In this document: piece after piece, positions 28,371-54,009 of the stretch
How positions within the stretch are numbered: position 1 is the first letter of the stretch
Layout: every line of letters begins with the position of its first letter
Assembly: GCF_963675165.1 (NCBI RefSeq)
Contig: NC_087392.1
Span: forward strand, 1,441,001-1,505,000
Origin: Halichondria panicea
Taxonomy: Eukaryota; Porifera; Demospongiae; Suberitida; Halichondriidae
Direction of reading: 5' to 3'
DNA length: 64,000 nt
Translations under genes and position numbers: made by a program
Notes under the pieces: generated by a model
Databases searched by the model: none
Told to the model about the DNA's origin: nothing
Seen by the model: only the letters and a program-made list of their open reading frames with translations

Positions 28371-28538
28371 CTGAATACAATGAGACTCAGTATAATCAAC
28401 TACGTTATATAAGGGACATAGCCAGGGGGATCCAGCACCCCCGTGGCTACGCACATAATAGTTGTACTTATACATGTACCACATGCAACAGTACACCTAT
28501 ACTCATGTACAATGGCCATACAACAATACTATTATAAG

Positions 28539-30181: not shown

Positions 30182-30220
30182 GTATAAATATAGTAAACTA
30201 GTAACTTTCCGTAATATATT

Positions 30221-32203
30221 TTATTTCCCTTCCTGTCTATAATCGGCCAGGACCGAGGCTAACATGCACATACATAACACTTTACCTCTGCTCTTGTTTC
30301 TTTTTCTGTCTTCCAGCTCTTTCCTGATGAGGTAGATCTTCTGAGCTATTAGTTTGTAGTACTCCTCTCTGTTCTGAGCTGCCTCAAACATCACCTTCTC
30401 AACCTGAAGGGAGAACATTCCCATAGTTCAACTCTACACTACAGTACATGGAACACACCGTATAAGAGTACAGATACGTGTACACATGCATACTGTACAG
30501 TGTTGTTTTGCTTTCTTAGATCCACTTTACATATGAGACATCAACCGTTATTTTGAATGCGATGTTCTAAATAATACCCACCTTCATGGAATACTGGATA
30601 AGACTCTTGACTCGAGCATCTCTCAAAGCAATGGGATCATGTACAGGGTAGATGGCCTCCACTCTATAGTAGTGAGAGAAAAAGGAATTACTAGGGGTAC
30701 ATTAATGCAATTAAATCACTGAGCGAAGGTTGATCTGGTAAGAATTGATCTCGTGGGAGTTGATCTCGTGAAATTGATCTCGTGTGCACACACCGAATTA
30801 AATACCGAGTGATAAGAATAGCATCACAATAATAATTGATATATGAGTTCAGATCATTGAGTTCAGGTGATTAAATTTTATCTAGAATGAATTTTGGATT
30901 GAGTTCAGGTCATTGAGTTACGTTGTATATACACCAGAAAGAGATTGAAGTGCTAATAATCGTCACATAAAAAGCTAGGTCTACGTGCATTCAATCTGGT
31001 AAAGACGTCTAATGGTTGACACATGAGAAAAATTTAGGTGCGACCGTCCAGTCCAGTTTAGTCACTCCTGGCTGTAGCTGAGGTCTAAGACTGTGAGCCG
31101 ACGTCCCTCAGCATCTGCCAAGATTTCACGCCGAGTATCAAAGTCTACATGTCCACCAGAGTCCAGATAGAGCTACTTTTGCCTCGACGTCAACAACCAC
31201 CATGGAAAATCTCGAATAGGACCTAGACATAACCTCGCTTTGCTCGGAATAAGTATAGGATAGACTACACCTAAGAGTAGAATATGCGTCTATGTAACCT
31301 CCGCGGTTGCGGTTAGCCCGAGGCGCAAAGCCGAGGGAATCTAACCGTAACCAAGGTGGTTACTAAAACGCATATTCTATGAGTGGGTGTGGTCTATCTA
31401 ACTTGGACTTCATTGCGCATGCGCGAGGCGTGGTTATAAAAGGCAAGTTGGTGCGTAGCAACAGAAATTGAATTTGTGCGAGCTGGACGAGCTGGAGAGG
31501 TGTGAGAGACACCAGTTGACAGAAAAAGACAAGAAGACGGCTTCAAAACTACAGTAAAACTTAGTAGAGCTTGTGAAACTCTTCTTGAAGATACTGGAAA
31601 GAACAGACAAGTAAAAAGAACCTAGAACTGACTGCAACACTACAAGAAGAAGAAAGAAGCTCTGTGGTGGAGTGGAGGGGGGTATAGAGTAGACTTGACC
31701 GGCATGGAACCTTGAAAAACTCAATAGAAAGTGTCAAACGACTGCTGAAGTGTTTTTGATGCTTCCTGGCCCCCCTTGCCCATGCCCAACTGGAAAAAGC
31801 AATACAAAGCAACAGTGGACATGGAAAGAATGGATATTGACTGAACAAACTATTGCATTCTGTAAAAAAAAGTCATCTTCTTGTCACTTTCACTAAAAAT
31901 TTCATTCCAACTTTTGAGAACTTTCTGCAAATTATTGTCACTTCCTGTAGAATATGTGTCCATTTCCTGTAGAATATGAGCCCATTTCCTGTAGAATATG
32001 CGTCCACTTCCTGTAGAATAAGTACCTTCTTGTAGATTATGCTTCCATGTAATCTACTGTTTTTAGCCAATCAGATCAATTACAGATGATGTAGTGTAGT
32101 CTAAATACAAAGAAAGTATGAAATTGATCATAATGTAACCCACTTACATTGTGTACATGCATATAATTATGGCTCGGTGCGCATGCGCAAGCGAGGTATA
32201 CGG

Positions 32204-32254
<51 letters not shown>

Positions 32255-35200
32255 GATTTTAATTTGTGGATTTGCAAAATAATGCTTCGTTCTCGAGTTA
32301 TGCCTATAGTTTTGCTTACTTGGAATGCCATATTGCAGCCTTTTCAGAAGAGCACGTAGCCAAACTTGTTTACCGAGTGTTGCTACTCCACTTAGTAGTT
32401 AGCTCTGCACTAGAACGCTAGCTATTGGTAGCTGCAAGGCTCTGCTGATGGCAGCCATTAATAATAAAGACTTGAACTTTTGGCATCGATCGTTTTTAAC
32501 AACGATCATTCGATCATTACCCACTAATTGAGTTTGCATGCAGCAAATTAATGTTCATCATGTGTATAAAAGCTATATTAGTAGCTTTATGTTATGTAGC
32601 TTTGGCATCTCCACCGAGGTATCAGCACCTGCGGTGCTTTCATAATACATGTACATGTACATTGTGCAGGACAAAACCACTTGGACGTACGTACAACACA
32701 CAACAAACACTTTGGTTGTACAACGTACAGTGTTCTAACGAGGTGCTGCCTGAGGTCAGGACTCACAAGAGAGTGCCACGCTTGAGTAGGATTGCTCGTG
32801 ATCCTGTGCAAATTAGTTACAAATCTTTTGCATGCATGCATGTTCATGTACACTGTCTTTAACACATTATACACATGTACAGTATGCTGTTACACATGCA
32901 TGTACAGCCAGTAAACGCTCTGTAATCCAACTTAGACGACTCAAACATCCATTGAGATGATCGATCGACTCACTGTGGAATGGGAAGAAAGAAGCTTGAT
33001 TGCGGCGGTCCTCCCAGGCCAGGATTTGCTCCAGGATTGTAGCCTGTGTTTCCCTGCCCTGGCCCTGGAAACACAGTGGGGGTGCATTAATTATATAGGC
33101 CCAGTTTCCTATCTAATAGTACATTGTAATTGGCTGTCTGTAAATTACACGATGCATACTAATGTACACATATATATTCAGAGGAGGTTGGTCACAATTA
33201 AACAGAGGAATGTGCGTGCACGGAGAAAAGACATACGGAAACGTACAGAGAAGAGCATGAAAAGTAGCTATCCTAGCTAAAGCCAGAAAGCTGCAAACGA
33301 TTGTAGCACTCTATACTAGTAGCAAATGATGCTAACAATACCCAGTAAGTGAGTATATAGCATAGTCACACTCGAAGCAATGAGCCAGAAACTAAGTTAA
33401 CCACAAACTACCAGTTGTTACTGTACTACTTTCCTTGGTTCTTTGACTCCTGTCTTAATGTAGCAGGTATATATAGCAATGATAGGTTTACACTACTACG
33501 ATTCTTAACTAACAGGAGATGTAATACAAGAGAGATAACATAAGACAAATGCTCAGGAATGCAATAATGAGACAAAAGTGCTGACTCAGCGGGTTGAAGA
33601 AGGGTTGAAGGCGAATTCGAGGCCAAACACTGCTTGCATAGCATGTCTCATTAAATCGTGACCAACCTCTCCTCTGATGTATACCGTATAGCGGGTAATT
33701 TTCGTGAGGTAAATATTCGTTATTTTCGTGGGCAAGCTGACCTACACAAAATGTTAACGTAGGCGTGGCTTACCAGAACGTAGGAATGCAGTGCAGGCAA
33801 CGAGACTAAACAAAATTTTTGCTCACGAAAACTACCGTTTCTCGAGTTGAACGAATTTTTTACCCCACGAAACTTACCCACTATACGGTAATCACTCCTG
33901 GTAAAATAATTATACATGTACAGAAAATTGCAGGTTGGTTTTGTCTGGTTAAATTACAGTGTTACACTATTCTCTGTGGTCAATTTTGCCTTGCACATTG
34001 CTATACAGGTACAAGCATGCACAAGCACTGCGGTACACCGTAGGCGTAATTGGGCTAATTACATGTACTAGAGTTCACTGTTTGCTATATAGTAATTGCA
34101 CTGATTTTCAAACTGCACGCACTTACATGAATAAATACTATACATGTACATAATTATATGTAGAATAATCTCTCTGCATGACATTGTATAAACTCACGTG
34201 TATGTTGTTGCTTGACAGGTAGACACACAGGACAGTCAGCACGCACACAGTTCCTCCAGTGATTGATGATCTGATGAGACGTGGCACAGTGTGTATCTGT
34301 ATATCGATACAAGGGCATAAACACATCAAATACAGTACATACATGTGTATACATTGTATGTGTAGTGTATATGTACTCGTTCTAAGTTTGTGCTTTAATT
34401 TACTGTACGAGCTTGAAAAGCGAACAGTTTGGCAAGCTGCGAGTTCCTAAAATATAATCATGCAATAATCTGTAGCATTGAGAAAACGTCATGTACATGT
34501 ACATGTACGTGCTGTTAGTCCTGATTTACGTGCACTTACAGGTGCAGGATCTTCCTGCCTGACACCCAGCCATGTGATTGAGCACACTCTTCATGGTCTT
34601 GCAGTGAGGGACGGTACAGGGTTGATAGTCATCGCTTGCCTGTTGATCTCTATCGCACTTGTGAGCATGGAGTAGGAGCACCAACTGCTGTTGAATCTGC
34701 TTCACCTTCTCAGAGTCCACAGTCTGGTTAGGGGGAGCCCCCGGTGGTAGCTTGTTTCCGCCGCCTGGGAATAGATTCTGTACGTGGATGGATCCAGGAG
34801 GGGGTGGGGTGGGGACACGGTGGTAGTACATCCCCCCAGTTGCTTGAGAGGTTGTCTGCTGTTGCTGCTGCTGATTCTGAGACAATAGATTATCATCAAC
34901 CTGCAGAAACATTCGGTTTGAAAAAGCAGTTCGTGAAGCTGAGATTCAAACTCAGGACTTACGAATGAATGCACAATGCACACATGTATTTTATATGCAC
35001 AGTACATGTGTGCGACTAAAATTTACACACACAGTACATACTATAATTATGCATGCAGGCGATAATTTTAGTTACATGTAGTGTACGCACACGAACATGT
35101 ACTACATGCACAATCGGAACAGGATGTACACCATAAAAACTTCTTTAAATGCTATTATACCATGCACCTACGTCATCACTAATTGATCTCATTAGTCAAC

Positions 35201-37698
35201 AGCTGTAGGATATATAGAATATTATCATACAGCCCCAGGGGTGCACAGTTTTTCGTTTTTTCACTTGTTTAAGAAAGTAAGCAAAGAGAAAAGAGTCATG
35301 CTTGACAGTACTAAGACCCAAAGCGATGGCAGAAACACAGAAGGTGGTCTCCAACAAGATGGCTAAGCTTTCATAGGTCCATGGGCGTGGTTTAGATACA
35401 TTCTATCCAAGAAGAGCTTGCAACTCCAGTAAGGGACGTCGAATGGTCAACGCTTGGACCAAAGAAGCTCTTGAGCATCTATAGGAGTCGACGTGTTGCT
35501 CAACTAGTTCTTTTACGGCTGCAAAATCCGGCATAGTCTTGTTCTTTTGCAGTCTGCATCGTGGATTGAATTGTTGCTAGGGGGAGGTCCTTTTATAGTG
35601 CTGCCGTCACGTGGTATAAATCAGATATGCCACACCTACTCGGAGGATATGCATCCCAAATATCCTCCGCTACCATGATTACACATACCCTCGGAGTAGC
35701 CATGGTAGCGGAGGATATATGGGTGCATATCCTCCTCTTAGGTGTGGTATATCCTATACTTATAGGACTCACGGAAGTCATTTCCTGCATGTTGGTGCGT
35801 CCTGGGAGAGAAGGGGTCCCACCAGTTGAGCCTGGTAGGACATTGTTGGGCGTGGTCTGCTGGGAAGTGGGAGGGGCTTGGGATACAGCTCCACCTAGAA
35901 GAGGGCCACTGCTCTGAGGGATGCCTGTACAAACACAAAAAGTAGTACATAAAATTTATCACAATGAGAAAATATACATAATGCCATCCACCTAAAAATG
36001 TTCAGCCAAGAAGACCAGATATACATGTACCGTATTACTAGAATGTTTTGCGAGCATCGAACATTTGCGAACTTTGCGAGGGTTGATCAATTTGCAACAA
36101 TAAAATCTGCAAAACCTAGTAAATATACATGTACATGTACACGATCCTTGCCAGAACGCAATAGTTGGATCGCAAAGGGTCAACTTGCTGATTTGGCTAA
36201 ATCGCAAAGGTTTTTCACCAGCAAAATATTCTAGCTGAAAAGAGTACTTGCACTAGCTACTGTATACTAAATAATAGAAAGAAGACGTACGTATTGTACA
36301 ATACAAACAAACGTACAGCTCTACAAAAGTCAATAGGCAGCTCAAAGAAAAATTATAGCAAACACGTTGTCACTCACCTTGATGTGGCTGTTGTCCACTG
36401 AAAGAAGAGTCATTCTGAGCCATTGGTACACCCTGGGAGGTTGCTGGATTGCCAGCGACTGGAACTGGTGGCCATAATGCATTACTCTGCTGCATATGAG
36501 ACGTTTGCTCGGGAGTTGGAGTGAATCCACAGTGGTTGGTTTGGATCTGATTCTGAGGTGGTCCCACGTTATACATTGCTCCAGGAGGTCTGCCGTGCAT
36601 CATTCCACCAGGGACGGCCATTCTCATCCCCCCAGGACTCATTACTTGCTGGCCACTGTGCACCTGTCTTCTCATCCCAGGATGCATTCCAGGGTTCATG
36701 TGCACGGGGTTTTGCATTGTTCTGTGCTGCTGAACGTAGTTGTACTGGGCTCGCATTTGAGGGTGCATGCCCTGAGGGCTCATCTGTGGGACCATTCTAG
36801 GCCGTCCTATTTGTCCACCGTCCATCGGCATCCCTGGGTGGTTAACGTGACGTGTCATTGCACCTCGCATTGTCGGTCCCATTATTCCTCCGCCTTGTTG
36901 TAACCGCATTTGGCTGGGGTGCATATCAGGGTGACTACCTTGGTAGCCTTGAGGCATCACCATTCTCGTTCCAGGGCTAGGGTACATGGGAGCCATGCCC
37001 CCCATTCCAGGTGAATTTGTCATCATAGGAGCAACATTTCTGGCCATCGGGTCAAAGTTTTGCATCGAGCTCAAGGGTGCCATGGACACAATTCCGTGAG
37101 CAGGGGTGGAGCTGACTGACGGTAGAGCAGGTGTGGGGTCAGTTAAAGTGCTGACTGCTATCGGTTGAGGACTCGGAGCGTTGCCCGAAGCATTGTAACT
37201 GGAATACATCGAGGAATTGACATCTCCACGAGGGCTGTTGTTGTACATGTTAACGGTGGCATTCGGAGTAGCATGGTTCATAGAGGGTGGCTGCGTTTGA
37301 GGAGGTGTAGCACTATAGGGGGTGGGTACTTGACTCGCAACAGGTGGTGTGACACTTGGGGAGACGTTGGACCTTTGATGATTCTGAGTTGGAGTGACAG
37401 TGACAGAGGCGTTCGGAACATTCTGCTGCTGAAAAGATAGAGAAGGGTTTGCATTTATGGTCGAATTAACGAGACCACTCGTATTGTTCCCAGCAAGATC
37501 GTCCAGAGAGGAGAGATCGGGTAGGTTGTCTAAATCGTCCCGAAACTGACTCAGCACTTGTGCAGTGAGAGAAAAACTTATGTTACGTACATGTGTGTGT
37601 CGGTGTGGAAATAATTGCACTACAAAGGGGGATACAGGTAGCTGCCTGTGAAGGATGAGGATTCTTTGTTTAGAACAGCTTGATTTCTTGAACAACAC
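30221..37698 (-). CDS. CBP-derived TAZ1-KIX protein, copy A (no HAT or bromodomain)
   Basis: Eight exons join in phase into one 787-aa frame: 36378-37698 (ATG at 37698), 35773-35924, 34540-34900, 34198-34296, 32974-33064, 32729-32803, 30582-30663 and 30221-30403 (TAA). They correspond to CBP exons 2-5 and 7-10; CBP exon 6 is absent. TAZ1 (~565-640) keeps its zinc-ligand pattern: [41 protein letters not shown] (~682-766) keeps [20 protein letters not shown]. Everything after KIX is lost; the last exon reads through the old donor site into a 21-residue intron-derived tail, and its stop overlaps a minus-strand AATAAA. CBP exon 1 is also missing, and the ATG lies in former intron sequence. TAZ1 and KIX bind transcription-factor activation domains, so a competitor of CBP is a reasonable inference. 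An expressed pseudogene is the alternative. Confidence 0.65.
30729..30930. repeat. Short local repeats in copy A intron (TTGATCTCGTG and GAGTTCAGGTCATT)
   Basis: TTGATCT recurs four times at 30729-30785, mostly as TTGATCTCGTG. GAGTTCAGRTCATTGAGTT then recurs two to three times to about 30930. Both lie in the long KIX intron 30664-32728 and are shared with unit 2 (about 46535-46730). Confidence 0.7.
31279..31379. repeat. Foldback element with GAGGCGCAAAGCCGAG loop (copy A)
   Basis: The arms GAATATGCGTC...GGTTAG (31279-31316) and CTAAC...GACGCATATTC-like (to 31379) are complementary. They enclose CCCGAGGCGCAAAGCCGAGG, itself a small palindrome. The unit 2 copy is at 47085-47185. Confidence 0.75.
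31939..32048. repeat. 22-base tandem repeat, about 5 units (copy A)
   Basis: The unit CAYTTCCTGTAGAATATGNGTC repeats four times with a fifth degenerate unit. The unit 2 equivalent is 47744-47852. Confidence 0.85.
32206..32253. repeat. (GT)n microsatellite, longer in unit 1
   Basis: About 24 GT units lie here; the equivalent position in unit 2 (48010-48029) has about 10. It lies in the long KIX intron of the CBP-derived gene. Confidence 0.95.
33682..33890. mobile_element. MITE, TACCGTATAGCGGGTAA family, 209 bases (copy A)
   Basis: The ends are TACCGTATAGCGGGTAATTT and its near-complement CTTACCCACTATACGGTA. TA at both ends suggests a Tc1/mariner-type TA target. It lies in the intron 33065-34197 of the CBP-derived gene, where CBP exon 6 would be. 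It is shared with 49472-49680. Confidence 0.8.
35160..35759. mobile_element. 600-base insertion with TTATA target duplication and internal palindrome
   Basis: The insert is flanked by TTATA at 35155-35159 and 35760-35764. Unit 2 and CBP itself have a single TTATA and no insert here. Near its right end, 35625-35677 and 35701-35752 are inverted repeats (CACACCTACTCGGAGGATAT and complement) around a 23-base loop. No clear terminal inverted repeats and no transposase were seen. It sits 9 bases before the donor side of exon 35773-35924 (on the intron side). Confidence 0.8.
36030..36231. mobile_element. 202-base MITE with TA target duplication, private to unit 1
   Basis: The element is flanked by TA (36028-36029 and 36232-36233). 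Its ends share TAGAATGTTTTGC and complement GAATATTTTGC, with a second inner match around TTTGCGA. CBP and unit 2 lack it (compare 51190), so the insertion is younger than the duplication. It lies in the intron 35925-36377. Confidence 0.8.
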
Positions 37699-37764
37699 TG
37701 TAGCCAGTTAGCTACTGAGCGTTTATCATGCAGCATACACGTGCTATTGTTATTACGAAATGAA

Positions 37765-37880
37765 ACTGGGTAATTTCCGTACCGCTTAATGAGCAGGCCT
37801 TCCGTTTCCGTTCCGACGCAAACGTTTTTACGGTAGAGAACGGAAACTTTTATTTGAGGGCTACTGTATATACATACCAC
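37765..37880. repeat. Fragment resembling the ~615-base inverted-repeat element
   Basis: GGAAACTTTTATTTGAGGGC followed by TACTGTATA and nearby TTCCGTTTCCGTTCCG resemble the ends of the element at 29565-30181. A similar stretch is at about 52730-52830 in unit 2. It lies just upstream of the putative start of copy A, in former CBP intron 1. Confidence 0.4.
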
Positions 37881-38184
37881 AACGAAAAGTACATAATGCC
37901 ATCCACAATTTGCAGCCAAGAACACCATGCTGACAAACAAGTGGGTGGACTAGTCTAAGTTTACCATACATGTATACAAGGTGCAACAAGAACTCTTACA
38001 AGCATCGGTGGGTTAACAGGAAGTGCATAATAATTATGATATACATGGAGCAGAATAGAGTACTTGCACTAACTATTGTATGGTAAACGATGAAGTACAT
38101 ACTGTATAATATAAATTTAACTTGGCAAAGACAATATACGTACAGAGTCAATAAGCAGCTCATAGCAAACACGTTGTCACTCAC

Positions 38185-39210
38185 CTTGATTTTGCTGTTG
38201 TCCACTGTTGAAAGAAGAGTCATTCTGAGCCATTGGTACACCCTGGGAGGTTGCTGGATTGCCAGTGACTGGAACTGGTGGCTGACTCATAGCATTACTC
38301 TGCTGCATATGAGACGTCTGCTCGGGAGTTGGAGTAAATCCACGGTGGTTCGCTTGGATCTGATTCTGAGGTGGTCCCACGTTGTACATTGCTCCAGGAG
38401 GTCTGCCGTGCATCATTCCACCAGGGTTGGCCATTCTCATTCCAGGACTCTGGCCACCAGGTGACATGTGCACCTGTCTTCTCATCCTGGGATGCATTCC
38501 AGGGTTCATGTGCACGGGGTTTTGCATTGTTCTTTGCTGCTGAACGTAGTTGTACTGGGCTCGCATTTGAGGGTGCATGTCCTGAGGGCTCATCTGTGGG
38601 ACCATTCCAGGCCATCTTATTTGTCCATCGTCCATCGGCATCCCTGGGTGGTTAACGTGATGTGTCATTGCAGCTTGCATCGGTCCTATCATTTCTCTGC
38701 CTTGCATCTGACCGGGCATTCCGGCATACATTCCAGGGTGGTACATCCCAGGATGACCACCTTGATAGCCTTGAGGCATCGCCATTCTCGTTTCAGGGCT
38801 GGGAACCCCACTCATCATTCCAGACATAAAGGATAAATTAGTCATCATTGGAGTTCTGACCATCGGGTCAAAGTTTTGCATCGAGCTCGAGGGTGCCATG
38901 GACACAATTCCGTGAGCAGGGGTGGAGCTGACTGACGGTAGGGCAGGTGTGGGGTCAGCTAAAGTGCTGACCGCTATCGGTTGAGGGCTCGGAGCGCCGC
39001 CTGAAGCATTGTAACTGGAATACATCGAAGAATTGACGTCTCCACGAGGGCTGTTGTTATACATGTTAATGGTGGCATTCGAAGTAGCGTTGTTCGTATA
39101 GGGTGGCTGCGTTTTGAGGAAGTGTTTTGAGGAGGTGTAGCACTATAGAGGGTGGATACTTGACTCACAACAAGTGGTGGACATTTGGGGAGACGTTGGA
39201 CCTTTGATGA
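38185..39210 (-). pseudogene. Second, partial copy of CBP exon 2 upstream of copy A
   Basis: The frame from an internal ATG at 39064 to the donor at 38185 is open (293 codons plus one base, phase 1) and aligns with CBP exon 2 from [13 protein letters not shown] onward. It has a normal GTGAGTGA donor. Upstream of 39064 the homology continues to about 39210 in a shifted frame and lacks the acceptor end. Because CBP exon 2 starts and ends in phase 1, this piece could splice to exon 36378-37698 and lengthen the product. Otherwise it is a relic. Confidence 0.65.
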
Positions 39211-39261
39211 TTCCGCAGTACACTATGCAGTACTAGTACTAGTAGCAGACAAGAATTTAAA

Positions 39262-39365
39262 AAAATAAGTACAAAACAATTGTCTTGTATATAGCTTCCA
39301 TGATCCACTAGAACTATCTAACTAGTTCATTTCCCATCAAATGGTAGCCATTTTCTGTTTTTGTT
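39262..39365 (-). promoter_or_regulatory. Transposed piece of CBP 5' flank
   Basis: CAATTGTCTTGTA...CATTTCCCATCAAATGGTAG and neighbours match 20600-20690, in the CBP/AMDHD2 promoter region. It lies directly upstream of the partial exon 2, so the order 5' flank then exon 2 is preserved. It could supply promoter activity to copy A; this is untested. Confidence 0.5.
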
Positions 39366-39429
39366 CTCAGACCGAGTTGTCTTTAAAATAACGCGATCTG
39401 GCAAAGTACTAGCTTCGAATCCAGGCCAA

Positions 39430-39659
39430 TACCGTATAGCGCGAAATTTTCGAGGCACTTATATTTCGTGGATTGGCCTCTAAAAGCCATTTCGTTGCAC
39501 AATGTTCGCAGAATGACTGCTTACCGGAAGCCACGCCTTTAAATCTTGCACGTTATAGCAGGTAAAGAACGATTTTCGTGGACTTAATTTTCGTGTAGGA
39601 TTGCTAACCCACGAAATCCACGAAAATTAAGCCCCTCGAAAATTTCGCGCTATACGGTA
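39430..39659. mobile_element. 230-base MITE with perfect 26-base inverted repeats, private to unit 1
   Basis: The ends are TACCGTATAGCGCGAAATTT plus TCGAGG and its exact complement. Unit 2 (near 55275) lacks the insert. It belongs with the 33682 and 28539 elements by its CCGTATAGCG terminus. The perfect inverted repeats suggest recent activity. Confidence 0.88.
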
Positions 39660-39800
39660 CTTATTTTGCCAGGCCCATTAGATTAATCTGAGAAACTGTA
39701 CACAAAATAAACGTTGCTCTTCCAACACAAAACATCATAAGAAGTCTACAAAAGAGTTCGACTAGCTCTTAGAAGTGAGTCCAGATGAGTGGCTGATCAA

Positions 39801-40581
39801 TCACACCTCAGTCTCTTCGTGTATCTTAAACTTGGCTGACAGTGACCCAATATCTCCATTAGCTTTCTCTTCAGCTATGATCTGGACAGAACAGAGTACA
39901 GTAGTCAACAACAAGTACCAGTGTACAATACAGCTCTACCTGTTTCGCCAGATCCATCTTTCCAAACAGATTCCATGTAAGGACTCCAACTATTTTGCCG
40001 TCTGGTTTGTTGAGATAAAACACCACCCCTTTAGAATAATCATCCACAGGCAACTCGGATTCCTGAGATAAAGTGATAAAATTGTTAGTATAGTGTGTGT
40101 GTGTACAGTTTAATAATTGTACAGTTTTAACCGCTTAAACGTAGCAGATCTCAGTACAGCACAACTATACACCCACCTCACTGGTCTTCCTAGCCCATAC
40201 GCCCACTGTGGGGAGTTTGCTGTCAACCAGGCCCGTGGCTTCAAACCCAACCTCGGGGCCGACATCACTCCTGCACGGAACCAATAGAGTAGTATCACTT
40301 CAAACACATCTTATCATAAAGCAATTACATTCATGTACAAGCCTGACACCACACTGACCTGACCTCATGCACGTCATCAACTCTTGACTTCATGTATATA
40401 CATGATCACATGTGTATGATAATAGTCATTAATTAGTTTATACAGCTTGTAGTCCCAAATTAAAATAAAAAATTAACCAGTACAGATTGTCAATAGCTGA
40501 TAACTTACCAAAACATGGACTGGTGTGTGAATCTGTTGTGCTCCCCTGTCATGTTCTCTCCTGCCAGACGACCGCTTACGT
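39801..40581 (-). pseudogene. AIFM1 3' fragment (exons 11 part to 14)
   Basis: This matches AIFM1 exons 14, 13, 12 and the 3' part of exon 11, with their introns, at near identity to 55457-56210. It ends inside exon 11 at about 40581 and joins sequence found downstream of the NTPase gene. It has no 5' exons and cannot make AIF. It marks the duplication breakpoint. Confidence 0.9.
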
Positions 40582-41143
40582 CACACTTTAAGTCTCTTCG
40601 TGTCTCATGTTGTTGAACTGTACAGATCAAAAATAACTTTTTATAATAAACAAGCAATACTATTTGGCAATCCACGTAGCTATACGAATAGATATAGCAT
40701 GAGACCGAGTGTTGTATGAAATATACAGGTACAAGCCTGAGGGTGAGCCTGTATAATTATATTGCATACAACACAAGGATTCTCATGCTACCTTTATAAT
40801 TATGGGTTTTATATCACAACGACCCCTTACCGATTATGCCTTGAGGCTAAGCGATCGTGTAATATAAAATATTAGGGACTAGACTTTTATTACACGCTTG
40901 TAACCTTGACAACGTGAAACAATATACTGAGCACACTACCTAATACCTGACTCAAGGGTTGGTTGTGTTGGTTGTGTGGGGGACTACATTAGCAGCTACA
41001 TGTAGTTAAGTCGCTGCATTACCTGTGAGGATGACAACATAACATTCACATGAGACTCACTTACAGCAATTATTATAAGTTGGTGCACCATTTTATAGGG
41101 ATCAGACAAAATAAAATGTATAATATGGTACAAACATACCCTG
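40582..41143. other. Intergenic DNA shared with unit 1
   Basis: This matches 24765-25290 with small indels. No gene, RNA or repeat structure is apparent. It presumably contains the 3' flank of NTPase copy 2. Confidence 0.5.
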
Positions 41144-44100
41144 TCAGGTTGTATTGGTATGAGCAACTGCAGTTGCTGTCCTCACACAGTTTGCTTCAAT
41201 TTCATCGGCTACATCGTTACGCTTAACAGCAGGACGCCTTAGGCATTCACATATGTAAGGCCATGTGACCGGATGTTCTGGATCAGTGACTTTAAGACGC
41301 TTGGCCACCATATCCACTAGGCGGCGTTGATTAGTAGGGTATTGGTCTTCGATGTCTTTCAAATCATTATACTTCACCCCGAGAGCCAATCCTAAATTGA
41401 ACCAATCGTTGCTTGCACTGTTCAAACTATCAGAAATTATACTATTCATTTCAGTTAGAACAATCGGCTGGTTTGCACTTTCTCTTTTGTTTGGACCCTT
41501 TTCTGATGACAATTCTGTACACATGTAAAGATCATTAATACTCAAAGTCTACAGAGTCAGACTATATATAAATTATACACATACATCTAGACACTAGACC
41601 ACATAATACATTGAAATTAAGATACTTAAATACTTTGACTATAGTTCATGACAAGCACACATTTCTGCTGAGTATACTCTGTCTCATTACGCTTTACTGT
41701 AATGAATCATACCTTGTACAATGACATCATTCTTCTGACGCTTTAACAGAGTTTCAACTTCTTCATCTGATGGCAATAATCTTTTGCGTTTGCCTGAGGC
41801 TAGAGGATCTGTATGCAGTATAATATAGTAGTGATATAATCTTGTGTCGATATAGAAGGCATTAAAGAATGAAATGGCAGGTTCACAAAAATTATTAAGT
41901 TATAACCAGAGTTGTTACACTACTGAGCTGGCTACAATTTTATACATAATTATGCTACATTGAGAAACCTATAATTATATACATTATATATACATACATG
42001 TATGGGCCAGTACTATTATATAGGTCTCACCTTCCTCAGAAGTGTCATTTTCCAGAATTGATGGCTGCGATGAAAGTTCGCTTGCTACATTCGTAGATGG
42101 GCAACATACTGAGAGCCAGTTTTTATGACCTTTTCCTAACGTATATGTCATCTTATTGCATTGAGTACACCTCATAACATTGCCATTTGCAAGAACATGA
42201 GCTGGGTGGGGCACTTGGTGACTTGCACTTGTTTCAGTTGAAGGTGGTTGAGATTTGGGCAATTCATGGGGACACAAAAATGCAACTTCAGGATCCTCAT
42301 ATGTGTATTTCAGGGCTTGGTAAGCAGATTGCAAACCTAATCGAACGTTTTCATTTATCATAAACAACATTTTTTTAACATGACTACTGGAATGAATTTC
42401 GAGGAACGAAAACCGGTCAATTAGCATGATAAAACAGTCTTCCTTTCGATGAACGAATTGTACAAAGTTTCTACTCGGCTGGTGATCCTCCATTTCAATT
42501 TTCCATTCACATTCTTTAATTAAATACACTTGGAGACAGCAAAACACCCCACAGCACTGCCAGTTGCTTTTAAACTGCAAAACAAGTGGGATTAATCCGG
42601 TCTCAAGCAAAACAGCTCGTTTTTCATTGACTTCACTTGGTGGGAGCAAGGATAGAAGAGATGGCATATATAAACGCGTATCTTGAGTGATTCCTTGTGA
42701 GAATAAACGAAATGGGGTGGCTATCAGCAAGTACTTGAATATTTCAATGAGATCAGTGGGTGCAAACAGTCCATTGACATAATGCTTCTCAAAAGTCTTA
42801 TCAGACAGAAGTTCAATTGTAATAATTCCTTTATCAGTAAAATTTAACCAGTCTCCTGACCCATGTATTGGAGTGTTACTTCCTCGCACGTATGCAGCAA
42901 ACTCAACAAGTTCCGTTACCTTATCGAGAAGAACTTGAGTATCACAAAATACCACATTTGGAAGAATTTCAGGATAATAGTGAAAGATGTGATGCTCATG
43001 GAAGAATTTTAAAGCTTCACAAAGAGCATCTTCGTGAAAATTATGCAATGCTTTTGCAATTTCAACACATTCAGTCTTGCTTAAAACTTTTCTATTTTGA
43101 TTGGTTGAAACCTTTTCGACAATAATTTCTAAAACAAACCACCAAAAAGGGAACAAGATTTCATTTTTAAGCTTTTGAGATCGTTCGTAAATAATTTCAC
43201 GAATTGTCTTTGCTATGTCCTTACTGTCAGAGTCGCAGTTCTTGCAATCCATAGGAAATATAATCTCCTTCTTCTTCTTTGCCAAGTTGAAAAAATAAGT
43301 AAATTTCTGAATGTTATCTTTCTCTGCTAAGTTCAAAAAAGTTTTATTCTTGTCAGATAATGTTTCCATGCATTCAGATTGACGGTCTTTGTGAGTGCCA
43401 ATGCATATCAGCTTGCAGTTTTCACTCTGAGATTGAATTGACTGGACGAGATACTTAAAGTTATCAAGAACTGAGAGATGTGATTTAAAACTTTTACTAA
43501 CTGGCTCATCGTCCTTGTAGTATTCAACCAGCGGATGGTCGTCTAGGGATTCAGAGAGACGAAGGATATACAAAGCTATAGAAATCTTTGGCATGAAGAG
43601 GGGCAATAGATTATGAAAATGCGGTTGGCCTCCACTGTCTATTATGTAGATCCAATGAGATCCAAATTTTTCTTGAATAGCAGTACGATCATCGTCAGAT
43701 AACCGCTGAATATTCATCATTACATCTGAAATAATGTTAAGGAAATCTCTGCTCCCACCATCTAAACTTTCTTGTTCATTATCTGATAGTTTAGTTGGAC
43801 TAGCTCTTGAAGTCAAAGGAATTTCGTCAACCGGTTTATTGCTAGCTGGTTTATTGCTAGCTGGTTCATTGCTAGCTGGTTCATTCCTGGCTTCAAGTTG
43901 CTTCAGAGCAATGCTGAGTTCTTGTGGAATAATAGAGTTAGAATCTAAGCTGGATACATGCGATTTAATAACATCAGCAACTATGCTTTGTACGTCATCA
44001 CTAGCTATTGGTTTCCATGTTCTAGGGGAATCTTTTTGAGCTTCCATTTTCAGCTTTGTAGTGTCACGAATTTGTCGAATACATACCCTCTCTGCTGTGC

Positions 44101-44268
44101 TGGCTAATGGAGTGCTATTTCGGTCTTCGGGAGGAGGTAGTTCCAGAAGGAGATGCTTAGCGGAAGTTTTACCAGTACCCGCCATTCCAAAGAATAATAT
44201 ATTAGTAGTGTTCACACGGACAAATCCAGCCTTCATGGCTTCATCAAGGGCTTGTTTGGCCTTCAAGT
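41144..44268 (-). CDS. Roc/COR-like NTPase with C-terminal Death domain, copy 2
   Basis: Exons 42031-44268, 41713-41808 and 41144-41514 join in phase and encode about 900 aa. The first begins at an acceptor (GTATTCAG), so a 5' exon is missing from the model. Features in order: P-loop GMAGTGKTS, G3 DSGGQP, G4 GTHKD, a COR-like region (NVVFCDTQVLLDKV), a CTQC-type cysteine pair, a KRKR cluster, and a C-terminal Death domain (WFNLGLALGVKYNDLKDIE, then TWPYICECLRRPAV). The P-loop to G3 linker carries four copies of a five-residue repeat (ASNEP/ASNKP), one more than copy 1. Known Roc-COR-Death architectures include DAPK1-like and LRRK-related signalling proteins; this lacks a kinase or LRR in the visible part. 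A role in death or immune signalling is inference. Confidence 0.8.
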
Positions 44269-44436
44269 CTGAATACAATGAGACACAGTATAATCAACTA
44301 CGTTATATAAGGGACATAGCCAGGGGGATCCAGCACCCCCGTGACTACGCACATAATAGTTGTAGTTATACATGTACCACATGCAACAGTACACCTATAC
44401 TCACGTACAATGGCCATACAACAATACTATTATAAG

Positions 44437-44617
44437 TATAGTGGGTAATTTCGAGGGTATATAAATTGGCTATAATTATTTGTGAATTTTGCGTACAAAT
44501 ATTCGAGGATAAGCGGACTTGTATATTGAACATGCATTATTGCAGTTTAAATTTTTATGGCTTGGTTGAATCCGCGAAAATATTAGCCCTTGAAAATTAC
44601 CCACTATATATACAGTA
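44437..44617. mobile_element. MITE, TATAGYGGGTAATT family (copy 2)
   Basis: This is the unit 2 counterpart of 28539-28719, with the same inverted ends and a few substitutions. Confidence 0.65.
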
Positions 44618-45371
44618 TACTAACAAGTCATATGTATAAATTATATATAGTACACGTATATATACGCTAAAGTATACAGTAACATATATATAGCCTTGTT
44701 CCCCGACCCGACTTTTCTCGAATGCTAGGTCGAAAGAGGACCTATAGTATACGTATTGCATAGGTGATAGTGCACATGCGCTTCAAATTACCCAGAATAT
44801 GGGTACCGTATATCTAATTTATCGGACACTTCTAATTACCCCGGACACTCTTTTGGGCAATTTCTAATACAACAGACACTCCAGTGCTTTAATATTAAAA
44901 AGTTTGTTCAATATCCGAACAATACCTTGAAAAGTTGAGTTATATTCATAGACGGCAAGTAAGACTTAGAGTGCTGCAGTTAGATAGCTTTAAGTAGCTA
45001 GTTTTAGATAGCTAGTGCAACTATTCAGTCGCGCATGCAGCTGCTTGCTTGTTCTAATCATTCCGGACACTTTGCATGCTCTATAAAAATCTGTTCCAAT
45101 TATATTTCTGTCTAACTAGGAAGTAAGTATGGATATTACAAATCGTGTATAATGCAAGGCCTCAAAGATCTACCACTAAATCATACTAGACCTATAAACA
45201 TTAGGACATCAGATGCCAACCAGATTCAAGTGAGCATTCTGTTTGAGCTAGTAACGCGAACAGTTGACACTATTTCTCCCACAAAAACAATACTTCTTGT
45301 ATACCCTCGCACGCACGCACGCCGCACACACAGAGTTAGTTTTACCGTATCGACTACGGCTCGAGGCATAC

Positions 45372-45984
45372 AGTAGCAGCCAATATAAAGTACCCGTTCC
45401 GTTTACGTAGTACATCCGTAGTACGCTGGTACGTTGCAAAATAAACGCTAAAAGTACGGTCAAGATACGCTATATGTACCGTTGCGTTTTTTTTCTAATC
45501 AACCGTTGTTAAATTTTTCCTTCGGCCACACATGCAGCTCTGCACGCAGCTAGCTAGCTAGCTAGAACTTTTGCAGCAGTTAGCTTTTAGATATTATAGC
45601 TAGCTAGCTAGCGTTTTCTAACCTTGTAGAACAGAGATAGAACTCATATAGAGACTATAGACATCCTTTTTGATGAGAAAGTTGAAGAAGAACCTGTGAA
45701 TGCATGGTGTGTTTTATGTCTTTGTTGTAGATCTAGAGCTAGGCTTACAGCTAGACATAGCCATAGCATTGCTAGGTAACTAGTCTAGCTACGACAGTCG
45801 AGATGACTAGGATTGTTTCTTTGTTCATTTTCTAAAACTTTTCTGCAAAACGTACTTGCAATGTGCAACGGTAATTAGCAACGGTACGGTAAATTCAAAA
45901 CACTTTTAATACGGTGTCAAAACGGAAACGTTACGAATGTATACGGACGTACTAAACGGAACGGGTACTTTATATTGACCGCTA
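45372..45984. mobile_element. ~615-base terminal-inverted-repeat element (copy 2)
   Basis: This is the unit 2 counterpart of 29565-30181, with the same inverted ends near CAATATAAAGTACCCGTTCC. No coding capacity was seen. Confidence 0.7.
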
Positions 45985-46025
45985 CAGTATAAATATAGTA
46001 AACTAGTAACTTTCCGTAATATACT

Positions 46026-49000
46026 TTATTCCCCTTCCTGTCTATAATCGGCCAGGACCGAGGCTAACATATCGCACATACAAAACACTTTACCTCTGCT
46101 CTTGTTTCTTTTTCTATCCTCTAGATCTTTCCTGATGAGGTAGATCTTCTGAGCCAATAGTTTGTAGTACTCCTCTCTGTTCTGAGCTGCCTCAAACATC
46201 ACCTTCTCAACCTGAAGGGAGAACATTCTCATAGTTCAACTCTACACTACAGTACATGGAACACACCGTATAAGAGTACAGATACGTGTACACATGCATA
46301 CTGTACAGTGTTGTTTTGCTTTCTTGGATCCACTTTACATGAGACATCAACCGTTATTTTGAATGCGATGTTCTAAATAATACCCACCTTCATGGCATAC
46401 TGGATAAGACCCTTGACTCGAGGATCTCTCAAAGCAAAGGGATCATGTATAGGGTAGATGGCCTCCAATCTATAGTAGTGAGAGAAAAAGGAATTACTAG
46501 GGGTACATTAATGCAATTAAATCACTGAGCGAGGGTTGATCTGGTAAGAATTGATCTCGTGGGAGTTGATCTCGTGAAATTGATCTCGTGTGCACACACC
46601 GAATTAAATACCGAGTGATAAGAATAGCATCACAATAATAATTGATATATGAGTTCAGATCATTGAGTTCAGGTGATTAAATTTTATCTAGAATGAATTT
46701 TGGATTGAGTTCAGGTCATTGAGTTACGTTGTATATACACCAGAAAGAGATTGAAGTGCTAATAATCGTCACATAAAAAGCTAGGTCTACGTGCATTCAA
46801 TCTGGTAAAGACGTCTAATGGTTGACACATGAGAAAAATTTAGGTGCGACCGTCCAGTCCAGTTTAGTCACTCCTGGCTGTAGCTGAGGTCTAAGACTGT
46901 GAGCCGACGTCCCTCAGCATCTGCCAAGATTTCACGCCGAGTATCAAAGTCTACATGTCCACCAGAGTCCAGATAGAGCTACTTTTGCCTCGACGTCAAC
47001 AACCACCATGGAAAATCTTGAATAGGACCTAGACATAACCTCGCTTTGCTCGGAATAAGTATAGGATAGACTACACCTAAGAGTAGAATATGCGTCTATG
47101 TAACCTCCGCGGTTGTGGTTAGCCCGAGGCGCAAAGCCGAGGGAATCTAACTGTAACCAAGGTGGTTACTAAGACGCATATTCTACGAGTGGGTGTGGTC
47201 TATCTAACTTGGACTTCATTGCGCATGTGCGAGGCGTGGTTATAAAAGGCAAGTTGGTGCGTAGCAACAGAAATTGAATTTGTGCGAGCTGAACGAGCTG
47301 GAGAGCTGTGAGAGACACCAGTTGACAGAAAAAGACAAGAAGACGGCTTCAAAACTACAGTAAAACTTAGTAGAGCTTGTGAAATACTTCTTGAAGATAC
47401 TGGAAAGAACAGACAAGTAAAAAGAACCTAGAACTGACTGCAACACTACAAGAAGAAGAAAGAAGCTCTGTGGTGGAGTGGAGGGGGGTATAGAGTAGAC
47501 TTGACCGGCATGGAACCTTGAAAAACTCAATAGAAAGTGTCAAACGACTGCTGAAGTGTTTTTGATGCTTCCTGGCCCCCCTTGCCCATGCCCAACTGGA
47601 AAAAGCAATACAAAGCAACAGTGGACATGGAAAGAATGGATATTGACTGAACAAACTATTGCATTCTGTAAAAAAAGTCATCTTCTTGTCACTTTCACTA
47701 AAAATTTCATTCCAACTTTTGAGAACTTTCTGCAAATTATTGTCACTTCCTGTAGAATATGTGTCCACTTCCTGTAGAATATGAGCCCATTTCCTGTAGA
47801 ATATGCGTCCACTTCCTGTAGAATAAGTACCTTCTTGTAGATTATGCTTCCATGTAATCTACTGTTTTTAGCCAATCAGATCAATTACAGATGATGTAAT
47901 GTAGTCTAAATACAAAGAAAGTATGAAATTGATCATAATGTAACCCACTTACATTGTGTACATGCATATAATTATGGCTCGGTGCGCATGCACAAGCGAG
48001 GTATACGGTGGTGTGTGTGTGTGTGTGTTGATTTTAATTTGTGGATTTGCAAAATAATGCTTCGTTCTCGAGTTATGCCTATAGTTTTGCTTACTTGGAA
48101 TGCCATATTGCAGCCTTTTCAGAAGAGCACGTAGCCAAACTTGTTTACCGAGTGTTGCTACTCCACTTAGTAGTTAGCTCTGCACTAGAACGCTAGCTAT
48201 TGGTAGCTGCAAGGCTCTGCTGATGGCAGCTATTAATAATAAAGACTTGAACTTTTGGCATCGATCGTTTTTAACAACGATCATAGTCGATCATTACCCA
48301 CTAATTGAGTTTGCATGCAACAAATTAATGTTCATCATGTGTATAAAAGCTATATTAGTAGCTTTATGTTATGTAGCTTTGGCATATGTAGCTTTGGCAT
48401 CTCCACCGAGGTATCAGCACCTGCGGTGCTTTCATAATACATGTACATGTACATTGTGCAGGACAAAACCACTTGGACGTATGTACAACACACAACAAAC
48501 ACTTTGGTTGCAAAACGTACATTCTTTTAACAAGGTGCTGCCTGAGGTCAGGGATCACAAGAGAGTGCCACGCTTGAGTAGGATTGCTCGTGATCCTGTG
48601 CAAATTAGTTACAAATCTTTTGCATGCATGTATGTTCATGTACACTGTCTTTAACACATTATACACATGTACAGTATGCTGTTACACATGCATACAGCCA
48701 GTAAACGCTCTGTAATCCAACTTAGACGACTCAAACATCCATTGAGATGATCGATCGACTCACTGTGGAATGGGAAGGAAGAAGCTTGATTGCGGCGGTC
48801 CTCCCAGGCCAGGATTTGCTCCAGGATTGTAGCCTGTGTTTCCCTGCCCTGGCCCTGGAAACACAGTGGGGGTGCATTAATTATATAGGCCCAGTTTCCT
48901 ATCTAATAGTACATTGTAATTGGCTGTCTGTAAATTACACGATGCATACTAATGTACACATATATATTCAGAGGAGGTTGGTCACAATTAAACAGAGGAA

Positions 49001-52000
49001 TGTGCGTGCACGGAGAAAAGACATACGGAAACGTACAGAGAAGAGCATGAAAAGTAGCTATCCTAGCTAAAGCCAGAAAGCTGCAAACGATTGTAGCACT
49101 CTATACTAGTAGCAAATGATGCTAACAATACCCAGTAAGTGAGTATATAGCATAGTCACACTCGAAGCAATGAGCCAGAAACTAAGTTAACCACAAACTA
49201 CCAGTTGTTACTGTACTACTTTCCTTGGTTCTTTGACTCCTGCCTTAATGTAGCAGGTATATATAGCAATGATAGGTTTACACTACTACGATTCTTAACT
49301 AACAGGAGATGTAATACAAAAGAGATAACATAAGACAAATGCTCAGGAATGCAATAATGAGACAAAAGTGCTGACTCAGCGGGTTGAAGAAGGGTTGAAG
49401 GCGAATTCGAGGCCAAACACTGCTTGCATAGCATGTCTCATTAAATCGTGACCAACCTCTCCTCTGATGTATACCGTATAGCGGGTAATTTTCGTGAGGT
49501 AAATATTCGTTATTTTCGTGGGCAAGCTGACCTACACAAAATGTTAACGTAGGCGTGGCTTACCAGAACGTAGGAATGCAGTGCAGGCAACGAGACTAAA
49601 CAAAATTTTTGCTCACAAAAACTACCGTTTCTCGAGTTGAACGAATTTTTTACCCCACGAAACTTACCCACTATACGGTAATCACTCCTGGTAAAATAAT
49701 TATACAGAAAATTGCAGGTTGGTTTTGTCTGGTTAAATTACAGTGTTACACTATTCTCCGTGGTCAAATTTGCCTTGCACATTGCTATACAGGTACAAGC
49801 ATGCACAAGCACTGCGGTACACCGTAGGCGTAATTGGGCTAATTACATGTACTAGAGTTCACTGTTTGCTATATAGTAATTGCACTGATTTTCAAACTGC
49901 ACGCACTTACATGAATAAATACTATACATGTACATAATTATATGTAGAATAATCTCTCTGCATGACATTGTATAAACTCACGTGTATGTTGTTGCTTGAC
50001 AGGTAGACACACAGGACAGTCAGCACGCACACAGTTCCTCCAGTGATTGATGAGCTGACGAGACGTGGCACAGTGTGTATCTGTATATCGATACAAGGGC
50101 ATAAACACATCAAATACAGTACATACATGTGTATACATTGTATGTGTAGTGTATATGTACTCGTTCTAAGTTTGTGCTTTAATTTACTGTACGAGCTTGA
50201 AAAGCGAACAGTTTGGTAAGCTGCGAGTTCCTAAAATATAATCATGCAATAATCTGTAGCATTGAGAAAACGTCATGTACATGTACATGTACGTGCTGTT
50301 AGTCCTGATTTACGTGCACTTACAGGTGCAGGATCTTCCTGCCTGACACTCAGTCATGTGATTGAGCACACTCTTCATGGTATTGCAGTGTAGGAGGGTA
50401 CACGGCCGATAGTCACCGCTCGCCTGTTGATCTCTCTCGCACTTGTCAGCATGGAGTAGGAGCACCAACTGCTGTTGAATCTGCTTCCTCTTCTCAGGGT
50501 CCAAGGTCTGGTTAGGGGGAGCCCCCGGTGGTAGCTTGTTTCCGCCGCCGTGGATGGATCCAGGAGGGGGTGGGGTGGGGACATGGTGGTTAGGCATCCC
50601 CCCAGTTGCTTGAGAGGTTGTCTGCTGTTGCTGCTGTTGCTGCTGCTGCTGATTCTGAGACAATAGATTATCATCAACCTGCAGAAACATTCGGTTTTGA
50701 AAAAACAGTTCATAAAGCTGAAATTCAAACTCAGGACTTACAAACGAATACACACTGCACACACGTATTGTATACGTACAGTACATGTGTGTGACTAAAA
50801 TTTACACACACAGTACATGTACACACGACGTACATACTATAATTATGCAGGCGATAATTGTACTGTACACACACGTACTACATGTAAAATCGGAACAGGC
50901 TGTATATCACGAAAATTTCTTTATAAATGCTATTATAGACTCACAGAAGTCATTCCCTGCATGTTGGTGCGTCCTGGGAGAGAAGGGGTCCCACCAGTTG
51001 AGCCTGGCAGGGCATTGTTGGGCGTGGTCTGCTGAAAAGTGGGGGGGGCTTGGGATACAGCTCCACCTAGAAGAGGGCCACTGCTCTGAGGGATGCCTGT
51101 ACAAACACAAAAAGTAGTATATAAAATTATCACAATGACAATATATAATGCCATCCACCTAAAAATGTTCAGCCAAGAAGACCAGATATACATGTAGCTG
51201 AAAGAGTACTTGCACTAGCTACTGTATACTAAATCTAACAAAAAGAAGTGCGTATTGTACAATACATTATACGTACAGCTTACAAAAGTCAATATAGGCA
51301 ACTCAAAGAAAAATTATAGCAAACACGTTGTCACTCACCTTGATGTGGCTGTTGTTCACTGTTGAAAGAAGAGTCATTCTGAGCTATTGGTACACCCTGG
51401 GAGGTTGCTGGATTGCCAGCGACTGGAACCGGTGGCTGACTCATAGCATTACTCTGCTGCATATGAAACGTCTGCTTGGGAGTTGGAGCGAATCCACGGT
51501 GATTGGTTTGGATCTGATTCTGAGGTGGTCCCACGTTGTACATTGCTCCAGGAGGTCTGCCGTGCATCATTCCACTAGGGTTGGCCATTCTCATCCCAGG
51601 ACTCATTACTTGCTGGCCACCAGGTGACATGTGCACCTGTCTTCTTGTTCTGTGCTGCTGAACGTAGTTGTACTGGGCTTGCATTTGAGGGTGCATGTCC
51701 TGAAGGCTCATCTGTGAAACCATTCTAGGCCATTCTATTTGTCCACCGTCCATTAGCATCCCTGGGTGGTTAACGTAACGTGTCATTGCAGCTCGCATCG
51801 GTCCCATCATTCCTCCGCCTTGTTGTAATTGCATCTGACCAGGCATTCCGGCATATATTCCAGGGTTGTACATCCCAGGATGACCACCTTGGTAGCCTTG
51901 AGGCATCGCCATTCTCGTTCCAGGACTAAGGTACATGGGAGCCCCATCCACCTTTCCAGACATATAAGATAAATTAGTCATCATTGGAGTTCTGATCATC

Positions 52001-52545
52001 GGGTCAAAGTTTTGCATCGAGCTCGAGGGTGCCATGGATACAATTCTGTAAGCAGGGGTGGAGCTGACTGACGGTAGGGCAGGTGTGGGGTCAGCTAAAG
52101 TGCTGACCGCTATCGGTTGAGGGCTCGGAGCGTTGCCCGAAGCATTGTAACTGGAATACATCGAGGAATTGACATCTCCACGAGGGCTGTTGGTGTACAT
52201 GTTAATGGTGGCATTCGGAGTAGCGTGGTTCATAGAGGGTGGCTGCGTTTGAGGAGGTGTAGCACTATAAGGGGTGGGTACTTGACTCGCAACAGGTGGT
52301 GTGACACTTGGGGAGACGTTGGACCTTTGATGATTCTGAGTTGGAGTGAGAGTGACAGAGGCGTTCGGAACATTCTGCTGCTGAAGAGATAGAGAAGGGT
52401 TTGCATTTAAGGTCGAATTAACGAGACCACTCGTATCGTTCCCAGCAAGACCGTCCAGAGAGGAGAGATCGGGTAGGTTGTCTAAATCGTTCCGAAACTG
52501 ACTCAGCACTTCTGCAGTGAGAGTAAAATACATTGTTACGTACAT
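46026..52545 (-). CDS. CBP-derived TAZ1-KIX protein, copy B (no HAT or bromodomain)
   Basis: Eight exons join in phase into a 748-aa frame: 51339-52545 (ATG at 52545), 50945-51096, 50324-50678, 49982-50080, 48764-48854, 48521-48595, 46388-46469 and 46026-46211 (TAA). The architecture equals copy A: Met/Pro/Gln-rich N-terminal region, TAZ1 with its ligand pattern ([38 protein letters not shown]), KIX with [20 protein letters not shown], then an intron-derived tail and a TAA overlapping AATAAA. Relative to CBP, exon 2 has lost a block that encodes Met-rich repeats, in frame. Exon 2 keeps a CAG acceptor here, so it could also be an internal exon. Despite many substitutions, no frameshift or stop interrupts any of the eight exons. 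Confidence 0.65.
47085..47185. repeat. Foldback element with GAGGCGCAAAGCCGAG loop (copy B)
   Basis: This is the unit 2 counterpart of 31279-31379, with complementary arms around the same loop. Confidence 0.75.
47744..47852. repeat. 22-base tandem repeat, about 5 units (copy B)
   Basis: This is the unit 2 counterpart of 31939-32048: CACTTCCTGTAGAATATGTGTC and variants. Confidence 0.85.
49472..49680. mobile_element. MITE, TACCGTATAGCGGGTAA family, 209 bases (copy B)
   Basis: This is the unit 2 counterpart of 33682-33890, same length and ends. It was present before the segmental duplication. Confidence 0.8.
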
Positions 52546-52898
52546 GTGTGTGTCAGTGTGGAGGTAATTGCACTACAAAGGGGGATACAGGTAGCTGCCT
52601 GTGAAGGATGAGGATTCTTTGTTTAGTAGAACAGCTTGATTTCTTGAACAACACTGTAGCCAGTTAGCTACTGAGCGTTTATCACGCAGCAAACACAAGC
52701 TATCGTTATTACGAAATGAAACTGGCCGTACCGTTTTAATTTTAATGAGCAGGTCTTCCGTTTCCATTCCGTTTCGACACAAACGTTTTACAGTACGGAA
52801 CGGGAACTTTTATTTGAGGGCTACTGTATACATATCACAATACATAATTATAATACCATCCACAATTTGCAGCCAGAAAAGAGTACTTGTATATTATA

Positions 52899-53040
52899 GT
52901 TAAACAATGGCCTCGAGTGGTACTGGTATATTGATTTACACACGAGAGTAATCTGATAAACCACGAGGCGCAGCCGAGTTGGTTTATCTGATTACTCGAG
53001 CGTGTAAAGCAAATATACCACGAGAGGCCATAGTTTAACT
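52899..53040. repeat. 142-base foldback element with GAGGCGCAGCCGAG loop, private to unit 2
   Basis: The arms AGTTAAACAATGGCCTCGAG...GGTTTATCAGATTACTC-like are complementary over about 65 bases and end in GTTTAACT. The centre GAGGCGCAGCCGAG closely resembles the loop of the element at 31279. Unit 1 has no counterpart. Confidence 0.8.
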
Positions 53041-53990: not shown

Positions 53991-54009
53991 CAAACACGTT
54001 GTCACTCAC

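Follow-up and report, generated by a model that had tools for sequence, protein, structure and literature searches.

Two tandem partial duplicates of a sponge CBP gene keep open TAZ1-KIX reading frames without the acetyltransferase half

The window analysed here is a stretch of 64,000 nucleotides from the sponge Halichondria panicea (C16:1441001-1505000 of the 131 Mb, 39-contig genome that was searched). It holds the parent gene of the coactivator CBP (P) and, beyond its 5' end, two partial copies of that gene (A and B) that retain the regions encoding the TAZ1 and KIX domains and show no match to the histone acetyltransferase (HAT) domain. All three lie on the minus strand:

8502..20299, minus strand: P, the parent CBP gene, exon models 1-10, exon 1 read by eye
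30221..37557, minus strand: copy A, exons 2, 3, 4, 5, 7, 8, 9 and 10, followed by a tail that stays in frame up to a TAA at 30221; AATAAA at 30225
37557-36378, 35924-35773, 34900-34540, 34296-34198, minus strand: copy A exons 2-5, phases agree
33073-32974, 32803-32729, 30663-30582, 30403-30286, minus strand: copy A exons 7-10, phases agree
46026..52545, minus strand: copy B, exon set as in copy A, in-frame ATGs at 52545 and 52533, AATAAA at 46030
52509-51339, 51096-50945, 50678-50324, 50080-49982, minus strand: copy B exons 2-5, phases agree
48863-48764, 48595-48521, 46469-46388, 46211-46094, minus strand: copy B exons 7-10, phases agree

P starts with an ATG in exon 1 at 20299, its exons 2-10 occupy 19922-15538, and HAT, ZZ and TAZ2 follow further downstream, Pfam placing zf-TAZ and ZZ on the open reading frame (ORF) 8502-10220. 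Genome-wide, both HAT_KAT11 profile matches fall within P, making it the sole HAT-bearing CBP gene found, and the window contains three of three KIX matches and four of four zf-TAZ matches. With P exons 2-5 and 7-10 as the query, all 26 genome matches were in the window, so no further CBP copy was found outside it; these genome-wide counts are lower bounds. That query was confined to the eight exons named, and that A and B lack exon 1, exon 6 and anything past 15512, downstream of exon 10, is concluded from the window self-match, in which no match covers these parts, and for HAT also from the genome profile search. Exon 6 of P (16811-16602) is 210 nt long and could be removed in frame. Within P we also note a 320 bp CA repeat (10325-10644), and beyond its 3' end another local duplication, 3566-6020 against 6064-8240 (80–93% identity in four pieces, both members inside 3566-8240).

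The initial annotation had described both copies as retaining exons 2-5 and 7-10 with matching phases, and our exon models bear this out: in each copy all eight exons are in phase, with no stop or frameshift in the coding exons, so that neither shows these marks of a pseudogene. The uninterrupted frames were reproduced exactly, at 787 aa for A, which stops at 30221, and 748 aa for B, which stops at 46026. Past exon 10, the frame of each copy continues across the former donor into a short tail, and AATAAA lies beside the stop. The splice sites, which had been called usable, do look so for donors and acceptors generally, but the original exon-7 acceptor is gone from both copies; the exon-2 acceptor of A has moved to an AAG three bases inward, with the frame kept. 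'Intact', the word used before, is thus too strong: the frames are open and in phase, but exon 1 has been lost from both copies and the frame of A has no ATG at its start.

The long matches to P, together with zf-TAZ and KIX scores far over the cut-offs, show that A and B are no chance resemblance. KIX scores 86.6 bits in A and 83.5 in B (Pfam cut-off 27), and zf-TAZ scores 65.0 and 64.8 bits (cut-off 25); at E 0.01, Pfam returned only KIX-type and zf-TAZ models on the two copies, and no HAT match. Both align without gaps to the TAZ1 and KIX of human CBP, and these alignments, with the profile scores, uphold the coding potential for TAZ1 and KIX only that had been proposed for each copy. By eye, the twelve TAZ1 zinc ligands are kept in A and B. 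Among the KIX changes, K18T and L65I of copy A and K18R, L19I and V20L of copy B lie in or beside the CREB/Myb-binding groove.

The manner in which the copies have changed also bears on their coding capacity. All eight copy-specific indels counted (six in A, two in B) are in frame, whereas of 16 indels in the noncoding DNA aligned across 28.4-34.5k only 4 are multiples of 3 (Fisher p 0.0013). These eight were chosen by eye from the alignments, leaving aside changes in polyglutamine, indels common to A and B, three in B that agree with the extra exon-2 copies listed below (2b), and one in the tail; the indels left aside are likewise all in frame. The chance that the copy-specific changes would have produced no stop is about 0.06 for A and about 0.10 for B.

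We read A and B as partial tandem CBP duplicates that still encode a TAZ1 and KIX protein lacking the HAT half, with this HAT-less protein in use, and give this reading a probability of roughly 0.5. Its demonstrated part comprises the anatomy, the open frames, the in-frame indels and a genome in which no other copy was found. Coding capacity appears to have been kept under weak or shifting selection. The rest of the reading concerns how such a protein would be made, for which the surroundings of the copies are needed:

24758..40581, no strand assigned: tandem unit A, from the self-match
40582..56213, no strand assigned: tandem unit B, from the self-match
38185..39140, minus strand: A2b, a second CBP exon 2 truncated at the 5' side, with an ATG at 39064, an open frame and its donor intact
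54010..54980, minus strand: B2b, a second CBP exon 2 truncated at the 5' side, with an ATG at 54904, an open frame and its donor intact
39262..39361, minus strand: DNA resembling part of the region upstream of CBP exon 1 (20591-20687; blastn, 80.6%), upstream of A2b
55077..55207, minus strand: DNA resembling 20560-20687, upstream of CBP exon 1 (blastn, 85.6%), upstream of B2b
29562..30186, no strand assigned: dispersed 0.6 kb repeat, terminal inverted repeats about 55 bp long, its end about 35 bp past the copy A stop
37640..37875, no strand assigned: dispersed repeat on the 5' side of copy A exon 2 (40 matching pieces, window copies included)

A and B thus sit within one tandem duplication, and each is preceded by an exon 2b that was absent from the earlier models. 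Because the 2b donor is intact and exon 2 begins and ends in one phase, a 2b-to-2 splice keeps the frame, and the series 2b-2-3-4-5-7-8-9-10 is open for 1,033 aa in unit A (from the ATG at 39064) and 1,035 aa in unit B (from that at 54904); A would obtain an ATG from exon 2b only if the two are spliced. The exon 2b frame is kept in both units (A2b-B2b dN/dS, the ratio of nonsynonymous to synonymous rates, 0.37; 11 synonymous and 16 nonsynonymous changes, no transition correction). B exon 2 itself is a mosaic: at 30 sites where the 2b copies are alike but differ from P and A, B agrees with 2b at 12, with P at 17 and with neither at 1, those matching 2b falling in codons 68-80 and 110-142. The stretches that resemble DNA 5' of CBP exon 1 are possibly inherited promoters. 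We picture A and B as each being transcribed, possibly from this CBP-derived upstream DNA via exon 2b, with transcripts that would end at the tail stop beside AATAAA and a HAT-less product that would bind activation domains without chromatin acetylation, as a weak competitor or a scaffold.

Two side observations concern these units. The query 29560-30215, which contains the repeat beyond the copy A stop, has 119 matching pieces in the genome, window copies included, and matches elsewhere span about query positions 3-627. The unit boundaries are marked by copies, at 55327-56213, 39682-40581 and 24629-24791, of what seems to be the 3' end of an AIFM1-like gene; Pfam gave nothing on the ORF 58157-58753.

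Rates of substitution give a weaker picture than the indels do. Plain dN/dS is 0.43 between P and A (95% interval 0.29-0.60), 0.50 between P and B (0.34-0.75) and 0.60 between A and B (0.44-0.86), and clear purifying selection was considered on these values; most of the signal vanished when kappa was set to 3 and only copy-specific changes were counted, and the weaker figures for this ratio (omega) are used here for that reason. They count changes unique to one copy and omit a site that differs in all three; those for B include sites matching 2b, which may therefore have been transferred. Omega is then 0.64 for A (44 nonsynonymous to 26 synonymous changes, 44N:26S; p 0.049), 0.86 for B (41N:18S, p 0.34) and 0.73 for the two combined (p 0.057).

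These values weigh against a protein in use, and so do several further points: (i) TAZ1 of A has 14 changes from P, 10 of them where P and human CBP have the same residue; KIX of B has 11, of which 5 fall at such positions. (ii) The counts for these same two domains, 10N:3S in each, correspond to a roughly neutral rate without purifying selection; the 4N:1S of TAZ1 in B and the 3N:3S of KIX in A (omega 0.38, p 0.21) are too sparse to tell. Together, these changes look like relaxed constraint exactly where a competitor ought to be constrained. (iii) Exons 5 and 7, compared between P and A or B, have dN/dS of 0.93 and 1.24. (iv) For CBP exon 1, A and B gave no self-match, and an exact 15-base search for its start found P only. 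(v) The 787-aa frame of A begins with a GTG at 37698 and reaches an in-frame ATG only at codon 92 of exon 2. (vi) The exon-7 acceptor, CACAG in P, reads CACTG in both copies, and the frame relies on an AG 9 nt downstream. Protein-level selection on the copies thus appears weak or shifted, and for that reason their role, if any, would not be CBP's own; a role as competitor toward CBP is plausible on the domains retained, if unproven. The initial annotation had named dN/dS near 1 with frame breaks as grounds for abandoning it, and the data go half way: omega stands at 0.64 and 0.86, while A and B contain no frame breaks.

The same figures feed the idea that A and B are simply decaying, as young pseudogenes (synonymous divergence, dS, about 0.1) in which no stop has been caught yet and whose first signs would be the missing exon 1, the displaced acceptor and the near-neutral TAZ1 and KIX. 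We regard this as quite possible while leaning against it. The missing ATG of A would suit it, as would an omega for B not different from 1 and the 10N:3S counts just given; it sits poorly with indels that are in frame in every case and with some 120 P-A changes that made no stop. The chance of the latter would be about 0.01 were every change placed on an A line free of constraint, a figure to be read knowing that 50 of the changes occur in B as well and may belong to the line of P.

A further difficulty for decay is the distribution of differences between A and B. Across 28.4-34.53k, the KIX exons 8-10 (block 30286-32803 in A against 46094-48595 in B) differ at 18 of 275 sites (6.5%), the noncoding DNA at 55 of 5515 (1%) and exons 5 and 7 at 3 of 199. 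When the exon mask was slid along the alignment, shifts beyond 120 bp (5748 of them) gave at most 12 differences, and 18 was reached only at shifts from -1 to +42 (37 of 5988), which is probably due to three differences just inside intron 8, by which the spike slightly overruns exon 8. A spike tracking the exons in this way would not be expected from pure neutral decay, and it is otherwise unexplained. Two candidate accounts of it were dropped. Conversion from P as the origin of the KIX changes fails since, of the 18, 12 are specific to B (so not the base of P), 5 are specific to A and 1 differs in all three. An exon-wide acceleration, in which exons 4, 5 and 7-10 together seemed to run at five times the noncoding rate between A and B, was given up because exon 4 sits in an upstream block where A departs strongly from P and B in intron 3 as well (52 of 263 sites, a figure that poor alignment inflates), which leaves the KIX exons as the one spike.

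Synonymous sites of the KIX exons are raised between A and B as well (5.5 of 56.7), which favours introns homogenised by gene conversion with the exons held apart over positive selection alone. Selection would then be keeping the KIX exons of two functional, different copies distinct, which is compatible with a HAT-less protein in use; we hold this account to be rather unlikely. Consistent with it, dS between A and B is about 0.10 in exons 2, 3, 4 and 8-10 against 0.02 in exons 5 and 7 and 1% in noncoding DNA, and the part of the unit at 24.75-26.5k diverges by 4–10%. There is also a precedent, in that a study of gibbon L/M opsins describes exons more diverged than introns after conversion (PMC3213168), though selection there was backed by many individuals and a known trait, whereas here there are just three gene copies in one genome. 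Several small conversion tracts would moreover be required, and the B changes may instead be recent and positively selected.

Each unit carries, downstream of its CBP copy, an exon for a putative GTPase:

26050..28370, minus strand: Roc-like GTPase exon on the 3' side of copy A, beginning at a phase-1 acceptor, Roc below the cut-off
41984..44268, minus strand: Roc-like GTPase exon downstream of copy B, phase-1 acceptor as in unit A, Roc below the cut-off
41144..41548, minus strand: Death-domain match of unit B, 17 bits, below the cut-off of 22.6, frame open

The Death counterpart of unit A (25290-25680) is frameshifted. The GTPase exon is one of a large family, with 334 first-look candidates genome-wide (58 scored, 59 matches), and in one relative (L038) a second P-loop was seen by eye, lying upstream of the GTPase P-loop in a single long open frame. 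Exon 10 of the copy could splice to the GTPase exon in compatible phase in both units, the junction being in frame because exon 10 leaves one base and the acceptor is of phase 1.

This arrangement allows for fusion genes, in which the CBP copy would be the 5' part and exon 10 would splice, across about 1.9 kb, to the GTPase exon that follows on the same strand, giving a TAZ1-KIX-Roc-like GTPase protein, with the Death region in B. We consider such genes very unlikely. The in-frame junction comes with a kept exon 10 donor in both units, but agreement of phase has a one-in-three chance, and a stop and AATAAA come directly after exon 10. An AG in the same phase precedes the GTPase exon in 17 relatives besides A and B (by eye), so that it looks like an internal exon, and in L038 the frame is open upstream of it too. 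No sense ORF of at least 75 aa is listed between exon 10 and the GTPase exon; the dispersed repeat, on the other hand, lies within the would-be intron. Ankyrin pieces were found upstream in two of six relatives fetched (L044, by Pfam, and L045, by similarity to L044), but among these six, in which upstream matches were mostly to repeats, no shared upstream exon was found. GTPase omega is 0.60 in unit B (p 0.046), in favour of a fusion; in unit A it is 1.11 (24N:8S, polarised with 10 of 18 fetched relatives), which together with the frameshifted Death region, itself a point against fusion, would rather suit decay of that unit.

CBP surfaces are seized by viral proteins, and a bolder version would make the units chimeric immune genes: TAZ1-KIX spliced onto the Roc-like GTPase, with the Death region in B, would offer CBP surfaces as bait coupled to a cell-death module, and an arms race would have kept or driven the KIX exons apart. 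This we regard as less probable still. Only with a fusion would the units resemble NLRs with integrated decoys, in joining a host-target domain to a GTPase with a Death domain; the join here is a prediction, with Roc and Death below their cut-offs.

Returning to A and B as HAT-less duplicates in use, they share the exon 2-10 region, TAZ1 and KIX with the CBP/p300 (KAT3) coactivators, and differ from the CBP/p300 acetyltransferases in having no HAT match. A truncated CBP is reportedly dominant-negative in mice (Oike et al. 1999); the likeness is that of a truncated CBP opposing the normal protein, although the mouse case is a laboratory allele and not a natural paralog.

The closest parallel is in C. 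elegans, and as far as the kind is concerned it runs against the remark of the initial annotation that it knew of no described genomic CBP decoy family. According to PMC10320766, cbp-2 encodes the first zinc finger and KIX only and cbp-3 the first zinc finger only, neither with HAT; cbp-1, cbp-2 and cbp-3 lie within 160 kb, and cbp-2 and cbp-3 are likely partial duplications near cbp-1. They were formerly classed as pseudogenes, are expressed, and alter promoter activity when knocked down by RNAi, though decoy action of CBP-2, the TAZ1 and KIX partial duplicate, is not shown there. As is likely for CBP-2, the sponge copies derive from local partial CBP duplication, and they too have TAZ1 and KIX, here above the curated cut-off, and no HAT; unlike cbp-2 and cbp-3, they are two tandem copies, each in a unit that also holds an additional exon 2 and an exon for a Roc-like GTPase. 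Their synonymous divergence from P, about 0.1, leads us to infer an origin separate from that of cbp-2 and recent.

The HAT-less TAZ1-KIX kind is therefore already known from C. elegans, and A and B are a further case of it. If expressed, they would be a second, independent animal case, after CBP-2, of a HAT-less TAZ1-KIX protein arising by local partial duplication, which would suggest a repeatable route to tune CBP recruitment; the divergence of their KIX exons against near-identical introns offers a sequence-level handle on whether the copies are in use.

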